From assembly GCA_017519405.1 (NCBI GenBank), contig JAFWSH010000006.1:153653-217652 (forward strand): 64,000 nt of DNA, in the 5' to 3' direction. How positions within the stretch are numbered: the stretch's first letter is position 1; every line of letters starts with the position of its first letter. This document shows positions 54,059 to 60,248 of this stretch, piece after piece. A program made the position numbers and the translations under genes. The DNA is from Clostridia bacterium (GTDB lineage: Bacteria > Bacillota > Clostridia > Christensenellales > Aristaeellaceae). The notes under the pieces were generated by a model. It made no database searches, was not told the origin of the DNA, and saw only the letters and a list, made by a program, of their open reading frames with translations.

Positions 54059-54082
54059 AAAACACCGCCCCGGGCGGGGCGG
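54057..54082 (-). terminator. Terminator of the phosphonate operon
   Basis: On the minus strand CCGCCCC, loop GCCC, GGGGCGG, then TGTTTTTT. It overlaps the stop codon of the convergent gene. Confidence 0.82.
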
Positions 54083-54102
54083 CATCATCCGGAAGGGCGG
54101 CC

Positions 54103-55230
54103 TCAGGGCTTGCCCTGCCGGAGCCTTGCCATGAACCGTTCCTTGTTTTCCAGCGCCGTGGTGGTGGGACGACCCAGGTCGTCCCGGGCACCAATGGCGC
54201 TTTTTACTTCGATGAAGCACAGGCTGCCGGCGGCTTTCGCGGCCTCCAGCGCCCGGTCCAGGGCCTCGAAGCTGTCCACGCAGACGGCGCTGGGGTAGCC
54301 GCAGGCCCTCGCCACGGCGGTGAGGTCCGCCTGTCCCGCCACGGTGGGCATGCCCCCCACCGTCTCGTGGGCGCCGTTGTTGATGACGATGTGGATCAGG
54401 TTCGCCGGCCGCTGGGCGCCGATCACCGCCATGGCCCCCATGTGCATCAGGGCCGCTCCGTCCCCGTCAATGCACCAGACCCGCTCCTCCGGCTTCTGCA
54501 GGGCGATGCCCAGGGCGATGGAGGAGGCGTGGCCCATGGAGCCCACCGTCAGGAAGTCGTTCCCGTGGCCCTGCCCGGCGGCCTCCCGGATCTCAAACAG
54601 CTCCCGGCTGGCCTTGCCGGTGGTGGACACAATGGGGTCGTCCCCGGAGGCCGCCGCGATGTGCCGGATGATCTCCTCCCGGCGCAGAGTGAAGCTGTTT
54701 TCGTAGGTCACCTTCGGCGCGTCCGTCAGGGCGCCCTTGCGGATGACGAAGGCCACGTCCTTCCCCCGGGCCAGGAGCTCCCGGAACCGGGCCATCTGCT
54801 CCGCCAGCGCCTCCCGGGTGGTGTCCGGGCCCACCACAAAGGCGGCGATGTCCATGTCCTCCAGCAGCTTCAGCGTGATCTCCCCCTGCCAGATGTGCTG
54901 GGGCTCGTCGTGGACCCCGGGCTCCCCCCGCCAGCCCACCACAAAGATCACCGGGATGGCGTACACCTTCCCGTTCAGCAGGGACGCCGCCGGGTTGATG
55001 ATGTTGCCCTCGCCGCTGTTCTGCATGTACACCGCCGGCACCTTCCCGGTGGCCAGGTGGTAGCCCGCCGCCAGTGCCGCGCAGTTGCCCTCGTTGGCCG
55101 CGATGATGTGGTGCCGTCCGTCGATGCCGTACGTGGCCATCAGATAGTTGCACAGGGCCTTCAGCTGGCTGTCCGGCACCCCGGTCCAGAAGTCCGCCCC
55201 CAGGATCTCCACAAAGTCCTTGACGTTCAC
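54103..55230 (-). CDS. aepY: Phosphonopyruvate decarboxylase
   Basis: 375 residues, GTG start after GAGGAGAGG. Thiamine-diphosphate enzyme: FWTGVPDSQLKAL, ANEGNCAALAAGYHLATG (cofactor-activating Glu), MQNSGEGNIINP, and the ThDP/Mg motif CIDGDGAALMHM through VINNGAHETVGGM. Ending in the family-typical RFMARL tail. It decarboxylates phosphonopyruvate to phosphonoacetaldehyde, which makes formation of the C-P bond irreversible. Fourth gene of the operon and 36 bp after the lipoprotein gene. Confidence 0.93.
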   Translation of the reverse strand: MNVKDFVEILGADFWTGVPDSQLKALCNYLMATYGIDGRHHIIAANEGNCAALAAGYHLATGKVPAVYMQNSGEGNIINPAASLLNGKVYAIPVIFVVGWRGEPGVHDEPQHIWQGEITLKLLEDMDIAAFVVGPDTTREALAEQMARFRELLARGKDVAFVIRKGALTDAPKVTYENSFTLRREEIIRHIAAASGDDPIVSTTGKASRELFEIREAAGQGHGNDFLTVGSMGHASSIALGIALQKPEERVWCIDGDGAALMHMGAMAVIGAQRPANLIHIVINNGAHETVGGMPTVAGQADLTAVARACGYPSAVCVDSFEALDRALEAAKAAGSLCFIEVKSAIGARDDLGRPTTTALENKERFMARLRQGKP

Positions 55231-55266: not shown

Positions 55267-56919
55267 TCACTCCAGGGCGTCCAGGCTGATCCACATGGCC
55301 GGGCGCACCCCGGTATAGCCCGTCTGGGTCAAACTGCTCAGGACGGAGTAGCTGGATGTATACACCAGCTGGGTGGCGGTGGAATCCCGCAGCAGCCACC
55401 AGGAGGACTTGGGGGTCACCACGGCGTGCTTCTTCCGGGCTTCCTGGGCGTGGGCGGTGTACTTGGGCTCGGCCCTCAGCAGGCTCCGATACTGCTCAAA
55501 CTCCGCCTTGCTCAGCAGGAAGACCTTGTCCTCGGTGGACGGGCCGGTGGCGGTGGGAAGGATCATCCCGCTCACCGCGGGGAGCGCTGACCGGATGAAA
55601 TCGTTGTTCAGCCAGTTCCGCAGGGAGCAGCTGGCCCAGTCAGCCGAGACCTTTTTGTTGTAGTCATAGCTGTGAAAGGACTTGTACTCCAGCACATTCT
55701 GGGCGATGAGGAGCACGGCGCCATCCTTCTGGTCCAGTACAATCCAGGTGATGTCGCCGTAGTAGTTCCCCAGCTGGACGATCCGCCCGGGGGTGTAGAC
55801 CGCCGTCTTGTCCGGGGCAGCCTGGGCGGCGGCCTCGTTGCTCTCCTCCGGGGCGTACCGCTTCTCGATGGTTTTCCTTCTGTAGTTCTCCACCACCTGG
55901 GCCTGGCCGTTCTTGAAGTCCTCCGCGTCCTCGAACTGGTAGTCGTAGGCGATCCCGCCCCGGTCATCGATGTAGCCGAACCTGTGGTCACTGTTCTCGA
56001 TGATGGCCATGCCGTCGGAGAAGAGGTGGAGCTTTGCGGCCCCCGGGATCACCTTCCAGGTTTTATTGGTGGCGTCGAAGAACAGGCTGTCCTGCTGGAC
56101 CCCGCCCAGCACGGTCTTTCCGGTGAACACCAGCCGCCCGTCCTCCGTACGGTATCCGTCCCCGAAGACCACAAAGCTGCCCAGCAGGTTCATGTCCGTG
56201 TCGTAGACCTCCTGGCCGCCGTGGGCGTTGGAGAGGATCAGCCCCTCCTTCTCCAGGAATTTGATTCCCCTGGAGGACACCGTCTTCCCGCTCAGGCTCA
56301 TGAACAGCTTGTCATGGTCCTTGGTCTGCCCCAGGAAGCCGATGCCGGGGAGGATCTCCGGCACCGACGTGAAGTCAAAGCCGCCGATCTTCTTCCCTGT
56401 GCTGATCTGCAGCATGCCGTAGGTGCTGGTGCCGCCGAATTTGCGGATAACGGCATAGTCCCCGGACACCATCTCCACATAGTCCTGGGAGACCAGGATG
56501 GTTTTCCCCGTATCCATGTCGATCAGGTGATAGTTTTTCGTGTCGCCCTTCATGCTGCCCACCGCGATGTGGTCCCCTTTGTAGAGGAGGTAGGCCCAGG
56601 TGGGTTCCACCACCATGTCGCCGTTTTCCAGGATGAGGCCCTCCCGGTCCGGATTGCCCTGAAGGGTGACGAAGAAGTAGTGCTTGCCGTCGATCTCCTT
56701 CTCCACAACGCTGTCCCAGACCGCGTCCGCGATGAGCTCGCCGCCCTTGCGCACGCCGATCTTGTTCCCCTCACGGAACTTCTCGAAGCCGTTGGCAGGG
56801 GCCTGCGTGGCCTGCGCCGGACTGCCGCCGTCCGCAGCGGGGGTTCCTCCCGTTGAAGAGCAGCCGGTAAGCACCAGGGCCAGCACCAGCATGAGGATGA
56901 TCAGAGCGCGTTTATTCAT
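55267..56919 (-). CDS. Lipoprotein with WG-like repeats and a DUF6273-type C-terminal domain
   Basis: 550 residues. A lipoprotein signal peptide ends in the lipobox LVLTGC (Cys at about 20). A Ser/Gly/Pro/Ala-rich linker follows. The middle (about 45-350) is a series of beta-rich units such as KGGELIADAVWDSV, RFGYIDDRGGIAYDY and the short FxDxxGxxx turns of WG repeats. The C-terminal domain (about 395-550) resembles DUF6273: GRIVQLGNYYGDITWIVLD, SLRNWLNNDF and GVRPAMWISL. It has no catalytic signature. Its place between aepZ and aepY is unexplained; a surface binding or display role is possible. Confidence 0.8.
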   Translation of the reverse strand: MNKRALIILMLVLALVLTGCSSTGGTPAADGGSPAQATQAPANGFEKFREGNKIGVRKGGELIADAVWDSVVEKEIDGKHYFFVTLQGNPDREGLILENGDMVVEPTWAYLLYKGDHIAVGSMKGDTKNYHLIDMDTGKTILVSQDYVEMVSGDYAVIRKFGGTSTYGMLQISTGKKIGGFDFTSVPEILPGIGFLGQTKDHDKLFMSLSGKTVSSRGIKFLEKEGLILSNAHGGQEVYDTDMNLLGSFVVFGDGYRTEDGRLVFTGKTVLGGVQQDSLFFDATNKTWKVIPGAAKLHLFSDGMAIIENSDHRFGYIDDRGGIAYDYQFEDAEDFKNGQAQVVENYRRKTIEKRYAPEESNEAAAQAAPDKTAVYTPGRIVQLGNYYGDITWIVLDQKDGAVLLIAQNVLEYKSFHSYDYNKKVSADWASCSLRNWLNNDFIRSALPAVSGMILPTATGPSTEDKVFLLSKAEFEQYRSLLRAEPKYTAHAQEARKKHAVVTPKSSWWLLRDSTATQLVYTSSYSVLSSLTQTGYTGVRPAMWISLDALE

Positions 56920-56943: not shown

Positions 56944-58059
56944 TCATAGTCCCAGGATCTCCCTGTACAGCTCCTCAATATCCTCCCCCTCCAGCCGGGC
57001 GGGGAAGTTCTTCAGCCGCACGGGGTTCACCCCCCGGCACAGCACCGGCAGGTCCTCCGCCTTCGCCGCGGGGGCCGGCAGGGCCATGCTGTCCACCAGC
57101 TGACCGAAGCGCGCCGCGGCCTCCTCCGTCGACGCGCAGCCCAGGGCCGCGTCCAGCTCCTCCATCGTCCGGCGCAGGTACGCCTCCCCCCGGGGGTCGA
57201 TGCACCGCTCCGGGTGCGCCGCCAGCCAGGGGAACAGCGCCTTGTTGCACAGGGCCGCGGCGTGGCCGTGGGCCAGGCGGTACAGGCTGGTGAGCTTGTA
57301 GCACATGGCGTGGCCCGCCGTGGTCTGGGTGATGTTGATGGCCCGCCCCGCCAGGTTCGCCGCCCGGAGCATGCCCTCGTTGCCCTTCTCCTCATTGACC
57401 AGGTACGCGTGCAGGTGTTCCCGGATCGCCCGGATGGCCTCCCGGGCAAAGTCCCGGCTCTCCGGCGTGCTGTTCACCGACCAGAAGGACTCCACCGCGT
57501 GGCTCAGGGCGTCCAGCAGCGTGCTCTTGCGCTGGTAGGCCGGCAAGGTTTCCAGGGTGTCCGGCGCAAAGAGCACCGTGGCGGGAATGCAGCTCTCATG
57601 GGCCACACTCTGCTTCTCCCCCTTGTAGTAGATCACCGCGAACCGGGTGGCCTCGGAGCCCGTGCCCGCCGTGGTGGGCAGGGCCATCAGCCGCACATCG
57701 TTGGGCCGGATCTCCTGCTCCAGATAATTCCGCTCCGGATCCATGTCGGCGTAGAGCTTGATGCACTTGGCCACGTCCATGGCCGAGCCGCCGCCCACCG
57801 CCAGGATCAGGCGGGTGCCCGCCGCCCGGAAGGCCACCACGCCCTTCACCACCGACTCATAGGCCGGGTTGGGGGCGAAGTCGCTGAAGGTCACCGCCCG
57901 GATCCCCAGCCGCGTTTCCAGGGTGTCGAAATACGCCTTCAGTCTCAGAAAGCGGAGGGCTTCGTCACACACCAGGAACAGGGTTTTCTCCCCCTCCTCC
58001 CGGAGCAGATCGTCCAGCCCGCCGTAGGGGGGCTCCACCCGGATATATCGCTGCGCCAT
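56944..58059 (-). CDS. aepZ: Phosphonoacetaldehyde reductase, iron-containing alcohol dehydrogenase
   Basis: 371 residues. Group III alcohol dehydrogenase fold: VGGGSAMDVAKCIK (NAD-binding), TTAGTGSEATRFAV, then the metal ligands Asp and His in LLDALSHAVESF and His residues in TTAGHAMCYK and RLAHGHAAAL. Lying 3 bp from the PEP mutase fusion and next to aepY, it most likely reduces phosphonoacetaldehyde to 2-hydroxyethylphosphonate. The absence of an aminoethylphosphonate transaminase in the operon supports that product over 2-aminoethylphosphonate. Confidence 0.88.
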   Translation of the reverse strand: MAQRYIRVEPPYGGLDDLLREEGEKTLFLVCDEALRFLRLKAYFDTLETRLGIRAVTFSDFAPNPAYESVVKGVVAFRAAGTRLILAVGGGSAMDVAKCIKLYADMDPERNYLEQEIRPNDVRLMALPTTAGTGSEATRFAVIYYKGEKQSVAHESCIPATVLFAPDTLETLPAYQRKSTLLDALSHAVESFWSVNSTPESRDFAREAIRAIREHLHAYLVNEEKGNEGMLRAANLAGRAINITQTTAGHAMCYKLTSLYRLAHGHAAALCNKALFPWLAAHPERCIDPRGEAYLRRTMEELDAALGCASTEEAAARFGQLVDSMALPAPAAKAEDLPVLCRGVNPVRLKNFPARLEGEDIEELYREILGL

Positions 58060-58062
58060 GGC

Positions 58063-60072
58063 TCACTCCTCCGCCGGAATCAGCCGGATGATGTCCTTGA
58101 AGGGCATCAGCATGCTGTCGCACTCCAGGGCCCGGTGGTTCTCCAGGATCATCCGGGCGGCCTTCTGGATGGCCGGCACCGTGGCCCGCATCAGCTGGTT
58201 GGCATAGATGATCACGTTGGCGCCCCGGGCCTTGAACTCCTCCTCCGTCACGGAGTTGAAGCTGGTGGGCACCAGCACTACCGGCGTGGCCTGGTCCTTG
58301 GCCCGGAACTTCTCCAGGAACTCGAAGATCTCCGCCGGATCCTTCTTCCGGCTGTGGATCATGATGGCGTCCGCGCCAGCCTCCACAAAGGCGAAGGCCC
58401 GGGTCAGGGCGTCCTCCATCCCCCGCTCCAGGATCAGGCTCTCGATCCGGGCGCAGATCATGAACTCCCGGGTCTTCTGGGCCTTCTTCCCCGCCCGGAT
58501 CTTGGCGGAGAAGTGTTCGATGGAGTCCTGGGTCTGCTGCACCTCCGTGCCGAAGAGGCTGTTCTTTTTCAGCCCCGTCTTGTCCTCGATGATCACCATG
58601 GAAACCCCCAGCCGCTCCAGGGTGCGCACCGTGTAGACGAAGTGCTCCGTCTTCCCGCCGGTGTCCCCGTCGAAGATGATGGGCTTGGTGGTCACCTCCA
58701 TGATGTCCTCAATGGTCCGGAAGCGGCTGGTCATGTCCACCAGCTCGATGTCCGGCTTGCCCTTGGCGGTGGAGTCGCACAGGGAGGAGATCCACATGGC
58801 GTCGAACTGGTGGGCGCCCCCGTCCTGGTGGACCACGCTGTTCTCCACCACCAGGCCCGTGAGCCCGTCGTGGGCCTCCATGGCGGTGATCAGCCCCTGG
58901 ATCTCAATGGCCCGGCGCAGCCGTCCCCGGCGGATGTCCGGCATGGCGATGTCCGAGCGGGCACGGCGCTCCAGCTCCCGGTACTTGTCGTCCCGGGCGT
59001 AGGGGAACTCCACCAGCCGCCCGCCGTAGCCCGCCAGGATGGAAACCACCTCATCCCGAATGGGCTTCTGGAAGCCCGTCACCCAGTCGTCCCCGTGGAC
59101 CACCATGTCCGGCTTGTACTTCTCCAGGTTCTCCCGGTAGCTCAGGCTCCTCTGCTCCACCACCTTCCACACCCCGGCGATGCTCTGGAACATGGCCGCC
59201 CGGTCAGCGTAAGGCACCAGGGGGAAGCGCTTGTAGGAGGCCACAGCCGCGTCGGACATCACCCCGATGATCAGCTTGCCCAGGCGCCGGGCCCGGCGGA
59301 TCAGGGCGATGTGTCCCCCGTGAAGGATGTCCGTGGAGAAGCACAGGTACACCGTCCGGTTCTCCACCTCCCGCAGCCGCCCGGAGACCGCCGCCAGGTC
59401 CTCCGGGTTGTCGATCTCGGCGCAGAGCATGTCCCCCACGTCCAGGGCGGCGATCCCACAGGCCCCGTCCAGCACGTTCAGGGCGTTCTCCGCGTAGACC
59501 TTCCGCTCCCCCCGCTCGCAGAAGGCGGCGATGCTCTCCAGCCATTTCCGCCAGTCCGCCCGCAGGAGCTTGTAGAGGGGCTGAGCCGCCACCGCGTGCT
59601 CAAAGAATTCGATGCCCACCTTCACCACCTGTCCGTCCCGGAGCACAGCCTTGAAGTCCTTCTCCGGCAGGGGCAGGGTGGAGGAGACCGCCATGCAGGA
59701 CCCCTCATGGGCCAGCACCCGGTCCACCACCCCGTTCTCGAACACCAGGTCCCCGTGCATCAGCAGAATGTCGTCGTCCAGGTATTCCCGGGCGCAGTAG
59801 ATGCTGTAGATGTAGTTGGTCTCCCGGAACACCGGGTTGGGCACGAAGGTGTAGTGCAGGGGCAGGTCCAGGCTCAGGCAATAGTTCTCCAGCACATCGG
59901 CAAAAAGCCCCGTGGTGATCACCACTTCCTTGATGCCCGCCTCTGCGATCTGGTTCAGCTGCCGGGACAGGATCGTCTCCCGGGGAGAGATCTCCGTCAT
60001 GCACTTGGGGTGCTCCGAGGTCAGCACCCCCATGCGGGTGCCCAGACCGGAATTCAGGATCAATGCTCTCAT
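58063..60072 (-). CDS. aepX: Trifunctional NTP transferase / cytidylyltransferase / PEP mutase fusion
   Basis: 669 residues. Domain 1 (1-230) is a LicC/PntC-like nucleotidyltransferase: GLGTRMGVLTSEHPK at 9-23 and HGDLVF (D108). Domain 2 (about 238-370) is a cytidylyltransferase of the HxGH type: HGGH at 251-254 and MVVHGDDW at 323-330. Domain 3 (about 375-669) is PEP mutase with EDKTGLKKNS at 496-505 and FDGDTGG at 467-473. Domains 2 and 3 together resemble Fom1 of fosfomycin biosynthesis, which both forms phosphonopyruvate and cytidylylates 2-hydroxyethylphosphonate. The extra domain 1 is unusual. It is first of a four-gene operon. Confidence 0.9.
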   Translation of the reverse strand: MRALILNSGLGTRMGVLTSEHPKCMTEISPRETILSRQLNQIAEAGIKEVVITTGLFADVLENYCLSLDLPLHYTFVPNPVFRETNYIYSIYCAREYLDDDILLMHGDLVFENGVVDRVLAHEGSCMAVSSTLPLPEKDFKAVLRDGQVVKVGIEFFEHAVAAQPLYKLLRADWRKWLESIAAFCERGERKVYAENALNVLDGACGIAALDVGDMLCAEIDNPEDLAAVSGRLREVENRTVYLCFSTDILHGGHIALIRRARRLGKLIIGVMSDAAVASYKRFPLVPYADRAAMFQSIAGVWKVVEQRSLSYRENLEKYKPDMVVHGDDWVTGFQKPIRDEVVSILAGYGGRLVEFPYARDDKYRELERRARSDIAMPDIRRGRLRRAIEIQGLITAMEAHDGLTGLVVENSVVHQDGGAHQFDAMWISSLCDSTAKGKPDIELVDMTSRFRTIEDIMEVTTKPIIFDGDTGGKTEHFVYTVRTLERLGVSMVIIEDKTGLKKNSLFGTEVQQTQDSIEHFSAKIRAGKKAQKTREFMICARIESLILERGMEDALTRAFAFVEAGADAIMIHSRKKDPAEIFEFLEKFRAKDQATPVVLVPTSFNSVTEEEFKARGANVIIYANQLMRATVPAIQKAARMILENHRALECDSMLMPFKDIIRLIPAEE

Positions 60073-60137
60073 GCTGCTGTTCCTCCCCTGGTATGGTGCC
60101 TGCGGGCCGTATGCCCGGAGGACTTCACTGCCCCTAC

Positions 60138-60165
60138 ATTATATGTTTTTGAAGACAAAACGCAA
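60138..60165 (-). promoter_or_regulatory. Promoter of the phosphonate operon
   Basis: On the minus strand TTGCGT, a 16-bp spacer, then TATAAT at 60138-60143. Confidence 0.65.
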
Positions 60166-60219
60166 GGGCCGGAGCCTGAAACAACCCTCGAAATCCACCC
60201 GAAAACCTCGAAAAAGCCA

Positions 60220-60248
60220 TTGACAAACAGGGGATCATAGGCTAAAAT
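60220..60248 (+). promoter_or_regulatory. Promoter of the str ribosomal operon
   Basis: TTGACA, a 17-bp spacer, then TAAAAT at 60243-60248, followed by a 75-nt leader. Confidence 0.78.

Follow-up and report, generated by a model that had tools for sequence, protein, structure and literature searches.

A three-domain nucleotidyltransferase-cytidylyltransferase-PEP mutase protein in a probable 2-hydroxyethylphosphonate operon of gut-type Clostridia

The window analysed here, a stretch of 64,000 nucleotides from a Clostridia bacterium (contig JAFWSH010000006.1), contains a gene whose product joins three domains in one chain: an N-terminal nucleotidyltransferase of the PntC/LicC fold (NT), a Fom1-type cytidylyltransferase (CyTase) and a C-terminal phosphoenolpyruvate (PEP) mutase (PM, the domain of PepM proteins). 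The gene is followed by those for an iron-containing alcohol dehydrogenase (ADH), a lipoprotein and a phosphonopyruvate decarboxylase (Ppd), in that order (Table 1). The domains, their conserved sites, the operon and the frequent co-occurrence of NT and CyTase are seen directly, and the case for a 2-hydroxyethylphosphonate (HEP) operon is good in the window and among its closest relatives. Sequence comparison gives somewhat better than an even chance that the protein is a trifunctional phosphonate enzyme, in which the operon would provide HEP, CyTase would turn it into CMP-HEP for surface glycans, and NT would be a second active transferase. By analogy with relatives, PM would convert phosphoenolpyruvate to phosphonopyruvate, Ppd would decarboxylate this to phosphonoacetaldehyde, the dehydrogenase would reduce the aldehyde to HEP, and CyTase would use CTP to form CMP-HEP, from which a LicD-, TagF- or Stealth-type transferase would move HEP to a surface glycan or polymer. 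In the NT pocket one of the two acidic residues with which PntC contacts an amine is missing, and this domain would most likely supply the same surface structure with a second activated compound, another small phosphonate or phosphate without an amine.

The original prediction of one 669-residue chain with three domains holds, as the open reading frame is exact and all three Pfam matches exceed their curated cut-offs: PF12804 NTP_transf_3 on residues 3-194 (40.7 bits, cut-off 27), PF01467 CTP_transf_like on residues 248-342 (57.1 bits, cut-off 21) and PF13714 PEP_mutase on residues 393-643 (187.7 bits, cut-off 31.5). The motifs it had listed are all present, namely G9-L-G-T-R13-M followed by P22 and K23, H251-G-G-H254 and E496-D-K-T-G-L-K-K-N-S505. 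A purine-rich stretch (ggggagga) lies 5' of the ATG. A scan of genome contigs gave at least 576 confirmed relatives, of which the best 80 were kept, so that these loci lean to close relatives; some repeat genomes of the family sample described below. The fusion is present in 80/80, always with NT ahead of PM and at near-constant spacing, although one locus starts inside the gene at a contig edge (L158) and another is matched only to residue 635 (L172). An assembly chimera is ruled out by this shared domain order and spacing. An overlapping open reading frame on the plus strand (57214-60240, 1008 codons) is taken as the mirror frame of a GC-rich gene, because the homologues belong to the minus frame.

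Residue conservation was scored over distinct fused rows: identical sequences were dropped, as were NT matches of fewer than 190 residues, CyTase-PM matches short of the CyTase start, and loci L001-L032, most of which repeat L033 and later. The PM domain scores 395.8 bits against the phosphoenolpyruvate mutase family TIGR02320 (cut-off 319.55), the fusion protein does not reach the curated cut-off of the phosphonopyruvate hydrolase family TIGR02321, and E496, D497, K498, N504 and S505 are kept in 107/107 rows. Loss of metal- or nucleotide-binding residues in the first two domains had been named as what would undo the original prediction; none was found at the 11 NT positions checked or in the HxxH pair of CyTase in these 107 homologues.

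The CyTase domain bears out the likeness to Fom1 that had been noticed for the last two domains, both in its match to 5x3d (E 2.2e-37) and in the order CyTase then PepM. It is 49% identical to the HEP-CMP-bound Fom1 structure, superposes with an rmsd of 1.0, and has the same fold and HxGH motif; the two residues between the HxxH histidines vary among relatives. H251, H254, R291, Q307, H326 and W330 are kept in all 107 rows and R282 in 106, while position 281 has K in 101 rows and R in the other six. Some PepM proteins carry another CyTase subfamily, and 17 positions separate it from the CyTase of the fused rows. Fom1 has the fused letter at eight of them, shared by the window protein (S246, K281, L310, N315, L316, D329, Q335, L346). 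At none of the 17 does Fom1 have the letter that is commonest in the other subfamily, whose nine rows have C246 in nine, N281 in eight and N329 in nine. On the best reading, which draws on these relatives, CyTase would form CMP-HEP.

NT had been likened to LicC and PntC, and both comparisons are borne out: LicC is its best profile match (4.6e-17), and PntC tops the structure list when NT is modelled alone, as was done because a full-length search is filled by the PEP mutase domain. NT has the LicC fold and the PntC signature GXG(T/S)RX4-8PK, with R13 and K23 equivalent to Arg15 and Lys25 of PntC. G9, G11, R13 and K23 are kept in 106/107 fused rows, the remaining row (L158) having a gap there because its contig begins inside the gene, and N86, Y87, H106, D108, E195, N199 and D221 in 107/107. 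With no loss at these 11 positions (one row having a gap at four), a degenerate NT was ruled out. In PntC of Treponema denticola, Glu104 and Glu196 are positioned to contact the amine of 2-aminoethylphosphonate (AEP), according to the available text of Rice et al. (2019; PMC6697681). By profile alignment, in which the second segment is weak, Glu196 corresponds to NT Glu195, whereas Glu104 is replaced by His106. This histidine is found in all 107 fused rows and in 26/26 other NT rows collected, whereas three of three PntC/LicC-like NTs compared (from the window's own genome, L086 and L179) have Glu at the same position. NT was not adopted as a member of PntC, since one amine-contacting Glu is missing. 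The clade-wide His106 suggests a substrate without an amine, and NT is best read as an active second cytidylyltransferase, with CTP as the putative nucleotide and, most likely, another amine-free phosphonate or phosphate as the substrate. Stand-alone copies of this clade lie next to a transporter of the major facilitator superfamily (MFS) in four genomes, with no PepM among the matches listed (L091:8761-10810, L092, L182, L183). The L091 transporter is of the PgtP/GlpT organophosphate type, far below the named cut-offs, and the others were assigned by similarity; these loci may point to the NT substrate.

Table 1. Coordinates in the window of the fusion gene, its domains and motifs, and the rest of the operon.
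Feature	Position	Strand	Evidence and remarks
Fusion gene NTase-CyTase-PEP mutase	58063..60072	-	ORF, Pfam and NCBIfam; 669 aa, ATG start, first gene of the operon
Domain 1, NT, residues 1-236	59365..60072	-	PntC/LicC-fold nucleotidyltransferase
Residues 9-23 GLGTRMGVLTSEHPK, GXG(T/S)RX4-8PK signature with R13 and K23	60004..60048	-	Sequence; signature per the available text of PMC6697681
His106, aligned to PntC Glu104	59755..59757	-	Profile alignment
Domain 2, CyTase, residues 237-372	58957..59364	-	5x3d E 2.2e-37; TMt 0.93, rmsd 1.0
HGGH motif, residues 251-254	59311..59322	-	Sequence; both His kept in 107/107 fused rows
Domain 3, PEP mutase, residues 380-669	58066..58935	-	PF13714, TIGR02320
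EDKTGLKKNS, residues 496-505, PEP mutase motif (EDKXXXXXNS)	58558..58587	-	Sequence
Iron-containing alcohol dehydrogenase (ADH)	56944..58059	-	PF00465, 112 bits; 3 bases downstream of the fusion gene
Lipoprotein, 550 aa, DUF6273, sub-cut-off WG repeat	55267..56919	-	Pfam
Phosphonopyruvate decarboxylase (Ppd), GTG start	54103..55230	-	TIGR03297, 458.7 bits, above the cut-off of 312.5
Terminator-like hairpin and T run, just past the Ppd stop	54061..54086	-	Consensus match; 4 sites in the stretch against 3.4 expected by chance

The operon partners point to HEP, as in the pathway to the substrate of Fom1. The dehydrogenase is probably a phosphonoacetaldehyde reductase that would give HEP. Its substrate was assigned by context, because it scores far below the cut-off of the named phosphonate family (Phn_Fe-ADH/PsrA, TIGR03405; 132.8 against 423.7 bits) and is thus an iron-containing alcohol dehydrogenase (Fe-ADH) outside the named subgroup. 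Sequence searches of the PDB match it to general Fe-ADHs, and give distant matches for the decarboxylase. The lipoprotein is perhaps a passenger. The window's own genome, which is 80% complete, gave no match to an AEP transaminase, while the same query reached 1e-262 in a control genome (G261). It has two LicD and three TagF-like genes, all on other contigs. A glycan cluster of this genome, which includes TagF-like genes, has a LicD gene followed by the LicC-like NT in which Glu occupies the amine position (G000:C32:48535-50089; L036:16397-18101), perhaps a separate choline- or AEP-type decoration.

The fusion is widespread. Among 300 sampled genomes of the window's family, 178 have some match and 61, the window's genome included, have a full-length fusion, counted by hand as a match that starts at residue 1 or 2 and reaches residue 649 or further; one fusion has an in-frame TAG (G002), and split pairs read across a stop (G106, G127) were left out of the 61. 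The labels of the 80 kept loci span Lachnospiraceae, Ruminococcaceae/Oscillospiraceae, Ruminococcus, Erysipelotrichaceae, Mogibacterium, Prevotella/Bacteroidales and a few odd ones (Lentisphaeria, Chloroflexi), although many come from metagenome bins of rumen or gut, and such labels can be wrong. Cultured carriers include Ruminococcus sp. FC2018 and the Ruminococcaceae bacteria AB4001 and P7. Neighbours were counted by tblastn with bit-score thresholds, because the gene caller misses genes in low-GC loci, and contig ends limit these counts. Of the 80 kept loci, 73 have an ADH relative no more than 2.5 kb from the fusion and 74 no more than 9 kb away; for Ppd the numbers are 66 at 2.8 kb and 72 at 9 kb, and 70 loci have both within 9 kb. 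In most of these loci Ppd directly follows the dehydrogenase, with another gap in a few; in the window the DUF6273 lipoprotein gene stands between them. A LicD-like gene lies within 9 kb in 25/80 loci, a TagF-like gene in 10 and one or the other in 35, while an AEP transaminase match is near the fusion in two.

The domains have also been separated and recombined. In a PM-domain tree of 124 rows, 102 fused rows share a starred branch with two CyTase-PepM genes that have no NT (L072, L073). As these two are nested deep inside the fused clade, they have lost NT. An intact NT gene nevertheless lies on another contig in their genomes (G223, G235) and in two similar ones (G217, G293), which supports the reading given above, in that NT seems to be wanted in its own right. 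Nine split-type loci, where an NT gene is directly upstream of a CyTase-PepM gene, form one starred clade, and seven CyTase-PepM rows with the other CyTase subfamily form another clade; one fused row (L067) falls outside the fused branch, beside L087. Two genomes (G132, G185) encode a 748-residue NT-CyTase-Fe-ADH fusion (L035:9774-12020, L077:6619-8865). LicD genes are clustered with it, as is a CyTase-PepM gene whose CyTase belongs to the other subfamily, and the fused dehydrogenase is the only one in reach. NT-CyTase proteins without PepM also exist: two have H251 changed to R and K281 to G in CyTase and keep the 11 NT residues (L078:9096-10187, L079:8630-9721), and a third has G at N199 (L080). 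The other CyTase subfamily on PepM adjoins an AEP transaminase in four of nine loci (L177-L180), two of them near-identical; the L177 enzyme scores 454 bits against TIGR03301 (cut-off 360.8). Among the matches listed, which end near E 1e-15, no NT of the window's clade was found in seven genomes with that subfamily (G192, G032, G261, G128, G090, G196, G169).

Several observations weigh against the proposed trifunctional enzyme. The window operon itself contains no LicD or TagF-like gene, and the neighbourhoods are less uniform in the family sample, where 36 of the 61 fusion genomes were fetched with flanks, the window included. Within 9 kb, ADH is found in 17 of these 36 loci, Ppd in 19 and neither in 15, while LicD is near in three and a TagF-like gene in one, or four at most together. 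When the 15 genomes with neither gene were searched whole, a clear Ppd relative was found elsewhere in 13 (E 1e-83 or better; partial in G294 and G296) and none in G297 (L060) or in G026 (L064), which is 97% complete; in these two, either phosphonopyruvate must go elsewhere or the Ppd gene must be absent from the assembly. An ADH relative is present at 51% identity in G132 and G185 and at 47% in G125, and the other 12 have only Fe-ADHs at 34-40%. No strong AEP transaminase was found in any of the 15 by the query that gave 1e-262 in the control, so these genomes may make HEP in some other way, if at all. Similarly, five of the nine split-type loci have no ADH near, and one fusion with His106 adjoins an AEP transaminase match where neither ADH nor Ppd was found (L103). 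As for the domains, NT shares only 17-18% of its residues with PntC and LicC, the inositol-1-phosphate cytidylyltransferase 4mnd comes within about one Z unit of PntC in the structure search, and an organophosphate-type transporter beside NT fits an imported substrate. The positions diagnostic of CyTase partly reflect relatedness, as the median identity to Fom1 is 51% for the fused rows and 36% for the other subfamily. Finally, the NT tree, the backbone of which is weak, unites the four NT genes found on separate contigs in one starred clade but does not join this clade to the fused rows closest to L072 and L073, so that these genes may have replaced the lost domain instead of being that domain itself.

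The roles of the two transferase domains could be exchanged, with NT, a PntC relative re-tuned by the change of Glu to His, activating HEP and CyTase acting on another compound or at another stage. The place of PntC at the head of the structure list agrees with this, as does the occurrence of a PntC/LicC-like NT in clusters of the other CyTase-PepM subfamily (L179, L180, L086), its amine position being occupied by Glu in L179 and L086; NT may then follow the head group while CyTase stays constant. However, CyTase is close to a domain solved with HEP-CMP and shares the diagnostic residues of Fom1, and its subfamily, too, differs between the two cluster types, which leaves the exchange improbable. 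An equally small chance is given to both domains making CMP-HEP, as a backup or for channelling, with a single head group. Both folds include members that act on phosphonates (available text of PMC6697681), the NT-CyTase pair is also fused to a dehydrogenase, and the two PepM-free proteins in which CyTase lost H251 beside an intact NT fit such redundancy in part. Redundant domains should decay in some lineages, however, whereas the 107 fused rows show no loss, and NT also occurs beside a transporter without CyTase or PepM.

A slightly smaller chance still goes to an NT that makes a nucleotide-activated sugar, inositol or polyol phosphate for the glycan that receives HEP. The closeness of 4mnd is in keeping with this, and among NCBIfam models those for inositol-1-phosphate and sugar-1-phosphate enzymes score highest on the NT region, all far below cut-off; yet the best profile match is LicC, and both the fusion and the operon tie NT to phosphonate genes. 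It is very improbable that NT serves as an inactive scaffold or senses CTP: nothing was found in favour of this, and the residues checked are kept even in stand-alone copies. The trifunctional enzyme is preferred over these alternatives. A broader proposal, which we hold to be possible but short of an even chance, is that one polypeptide makes the C-P bond and feeds two cytidylyl head groups, CMP-HEP and a second amine-free one, into one surface polymer, that the resulting coat is common among gut and rumen anaerobes, and that NT is supplied from elsewhere in the genome where it was lost.

The original prediction knew of no characterized enzyme with this combination of domains. None was found among the matches listed in searches of the open-licence PMC literature, and no solved three-domain fusion is among the structure matches listed; the available portions of PMC8931226 contain nothing on fusions. 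The architecture itself is not new, however, as the available text of Rice et al. (2019; PMC6697681), where PntC was characterized, already counts 42 of 1485 PepM proteins as triple fusions of PF12804, PF01467 and PF13714. These have the same three Pfam domains as the window protein, but in that text they are only counted, with no operon or substrate analysis. Added here are the breadth of the fusion in the family, its operon partners, the loss of NT in one lineage whose genomes have it elsewhere, the NT-CyTase-dehydrogenase fusion and, at the level of predicted specificity, the clade-wide His106 in place of the PntC Glu and the Fom1-like residues of CyTase.

Among known systems, Fom1 of the fosfomycin pathway in Streptomyces wedmorensis also has CyTase then PepM in one chain, with a CyTase about 50% identical and of the same fold with HxGH. 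According to the same source (PMC6697681), it has no N-terminal nucleotidyltransferase, whereas the window protein has an extra one of 236 residues and so departs from the two-domain plan. The window operon has Ppd and an Fe-ADH, and no other fosfomycin-type gene was identified in it. PntC, the AEP cytidylyltransferase (PntC-AEPT of T. denticola, PDB 6pd1/6pd2), resembles NT in its fold, its signature and the Glu at the Glu196 position, but is 18% identical, has Glu104 where NT has His106, and is fused to a transaminase rather than to CyTase-PepM. LicC of Streptococcus pneumoniae (1jyk/1jyl) likewise shares the fold and signature, but is 17% identical and has different partners. The CyTase-PepM proteins of L177-L180 also have an N-terminal CyTase on PepM and Ppd nearby, but differ in having the other CyTase subfamily, PhnW instead of ADH, and no NT of the window's clade among the matches listed.

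Some neighbouring genes hint at further steps. In two Bacteroidales-labelled bins, two Stealth-like genes stand next to LicD genes beside the fusion (L162:6167-9592, L171:13265-16687); L162:7782-8717 was confirmed by Pfam and the rest were assigned by clustering, and they are candidate HEP transferases. Next to another phosphonate operon lies the gene for a 927-residue protein, one part of which is YidC-like and another sulfatase-like at a score below cut-off (L119:13289-16072), with cluster members in L138 and L175; could it be a membrane polymer enzyme or a flippase? An APS-kinase-like gene is near the fusion in three of the 80 kept loci (L141:2167-2664, L124, L106). A 3'-phosphorylating step by an APS-kinase-like enzyme belongs to Campylobacter phosphoramidate, and the gene product could similarly phosphorylate a cytidylyl donor; this was considered, but the gene is confined to those three loci. 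At L088:5930-10763, genes for LicD, a radical SAM protein, a lone Fom1-like CyTase, a CyTase-PepM and Ppd stand in a row, and L087:6043-7068 encodes a SPASM-CyTase fusion, truncated where the contig ends, with Ppd and a CyTase-PepM nearby. As Fom3 performs a radical SAM step on a CMP-phosphonate, such a step is conceivable at these two loci.

To our knowledge, the steps after C-P bond formation are mostly unassigned in bacterial phosphonate biology, and this operon is a compact and widespread case, a probable HEP pathway in gut-type Clostridia. According to the available text of PMC6697681, most bacterial phosphonate capacity is held to serve cell-surface decoration. The operon would place a Fom1-like activation step outside antibiotic synthesis and adds a second transferase clade, for whose substrate the change of one residue from Glu to His gives a hint. 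Identifying both nucleotide-activated products would show part of the chemistry at the surface of common gut bacteria.

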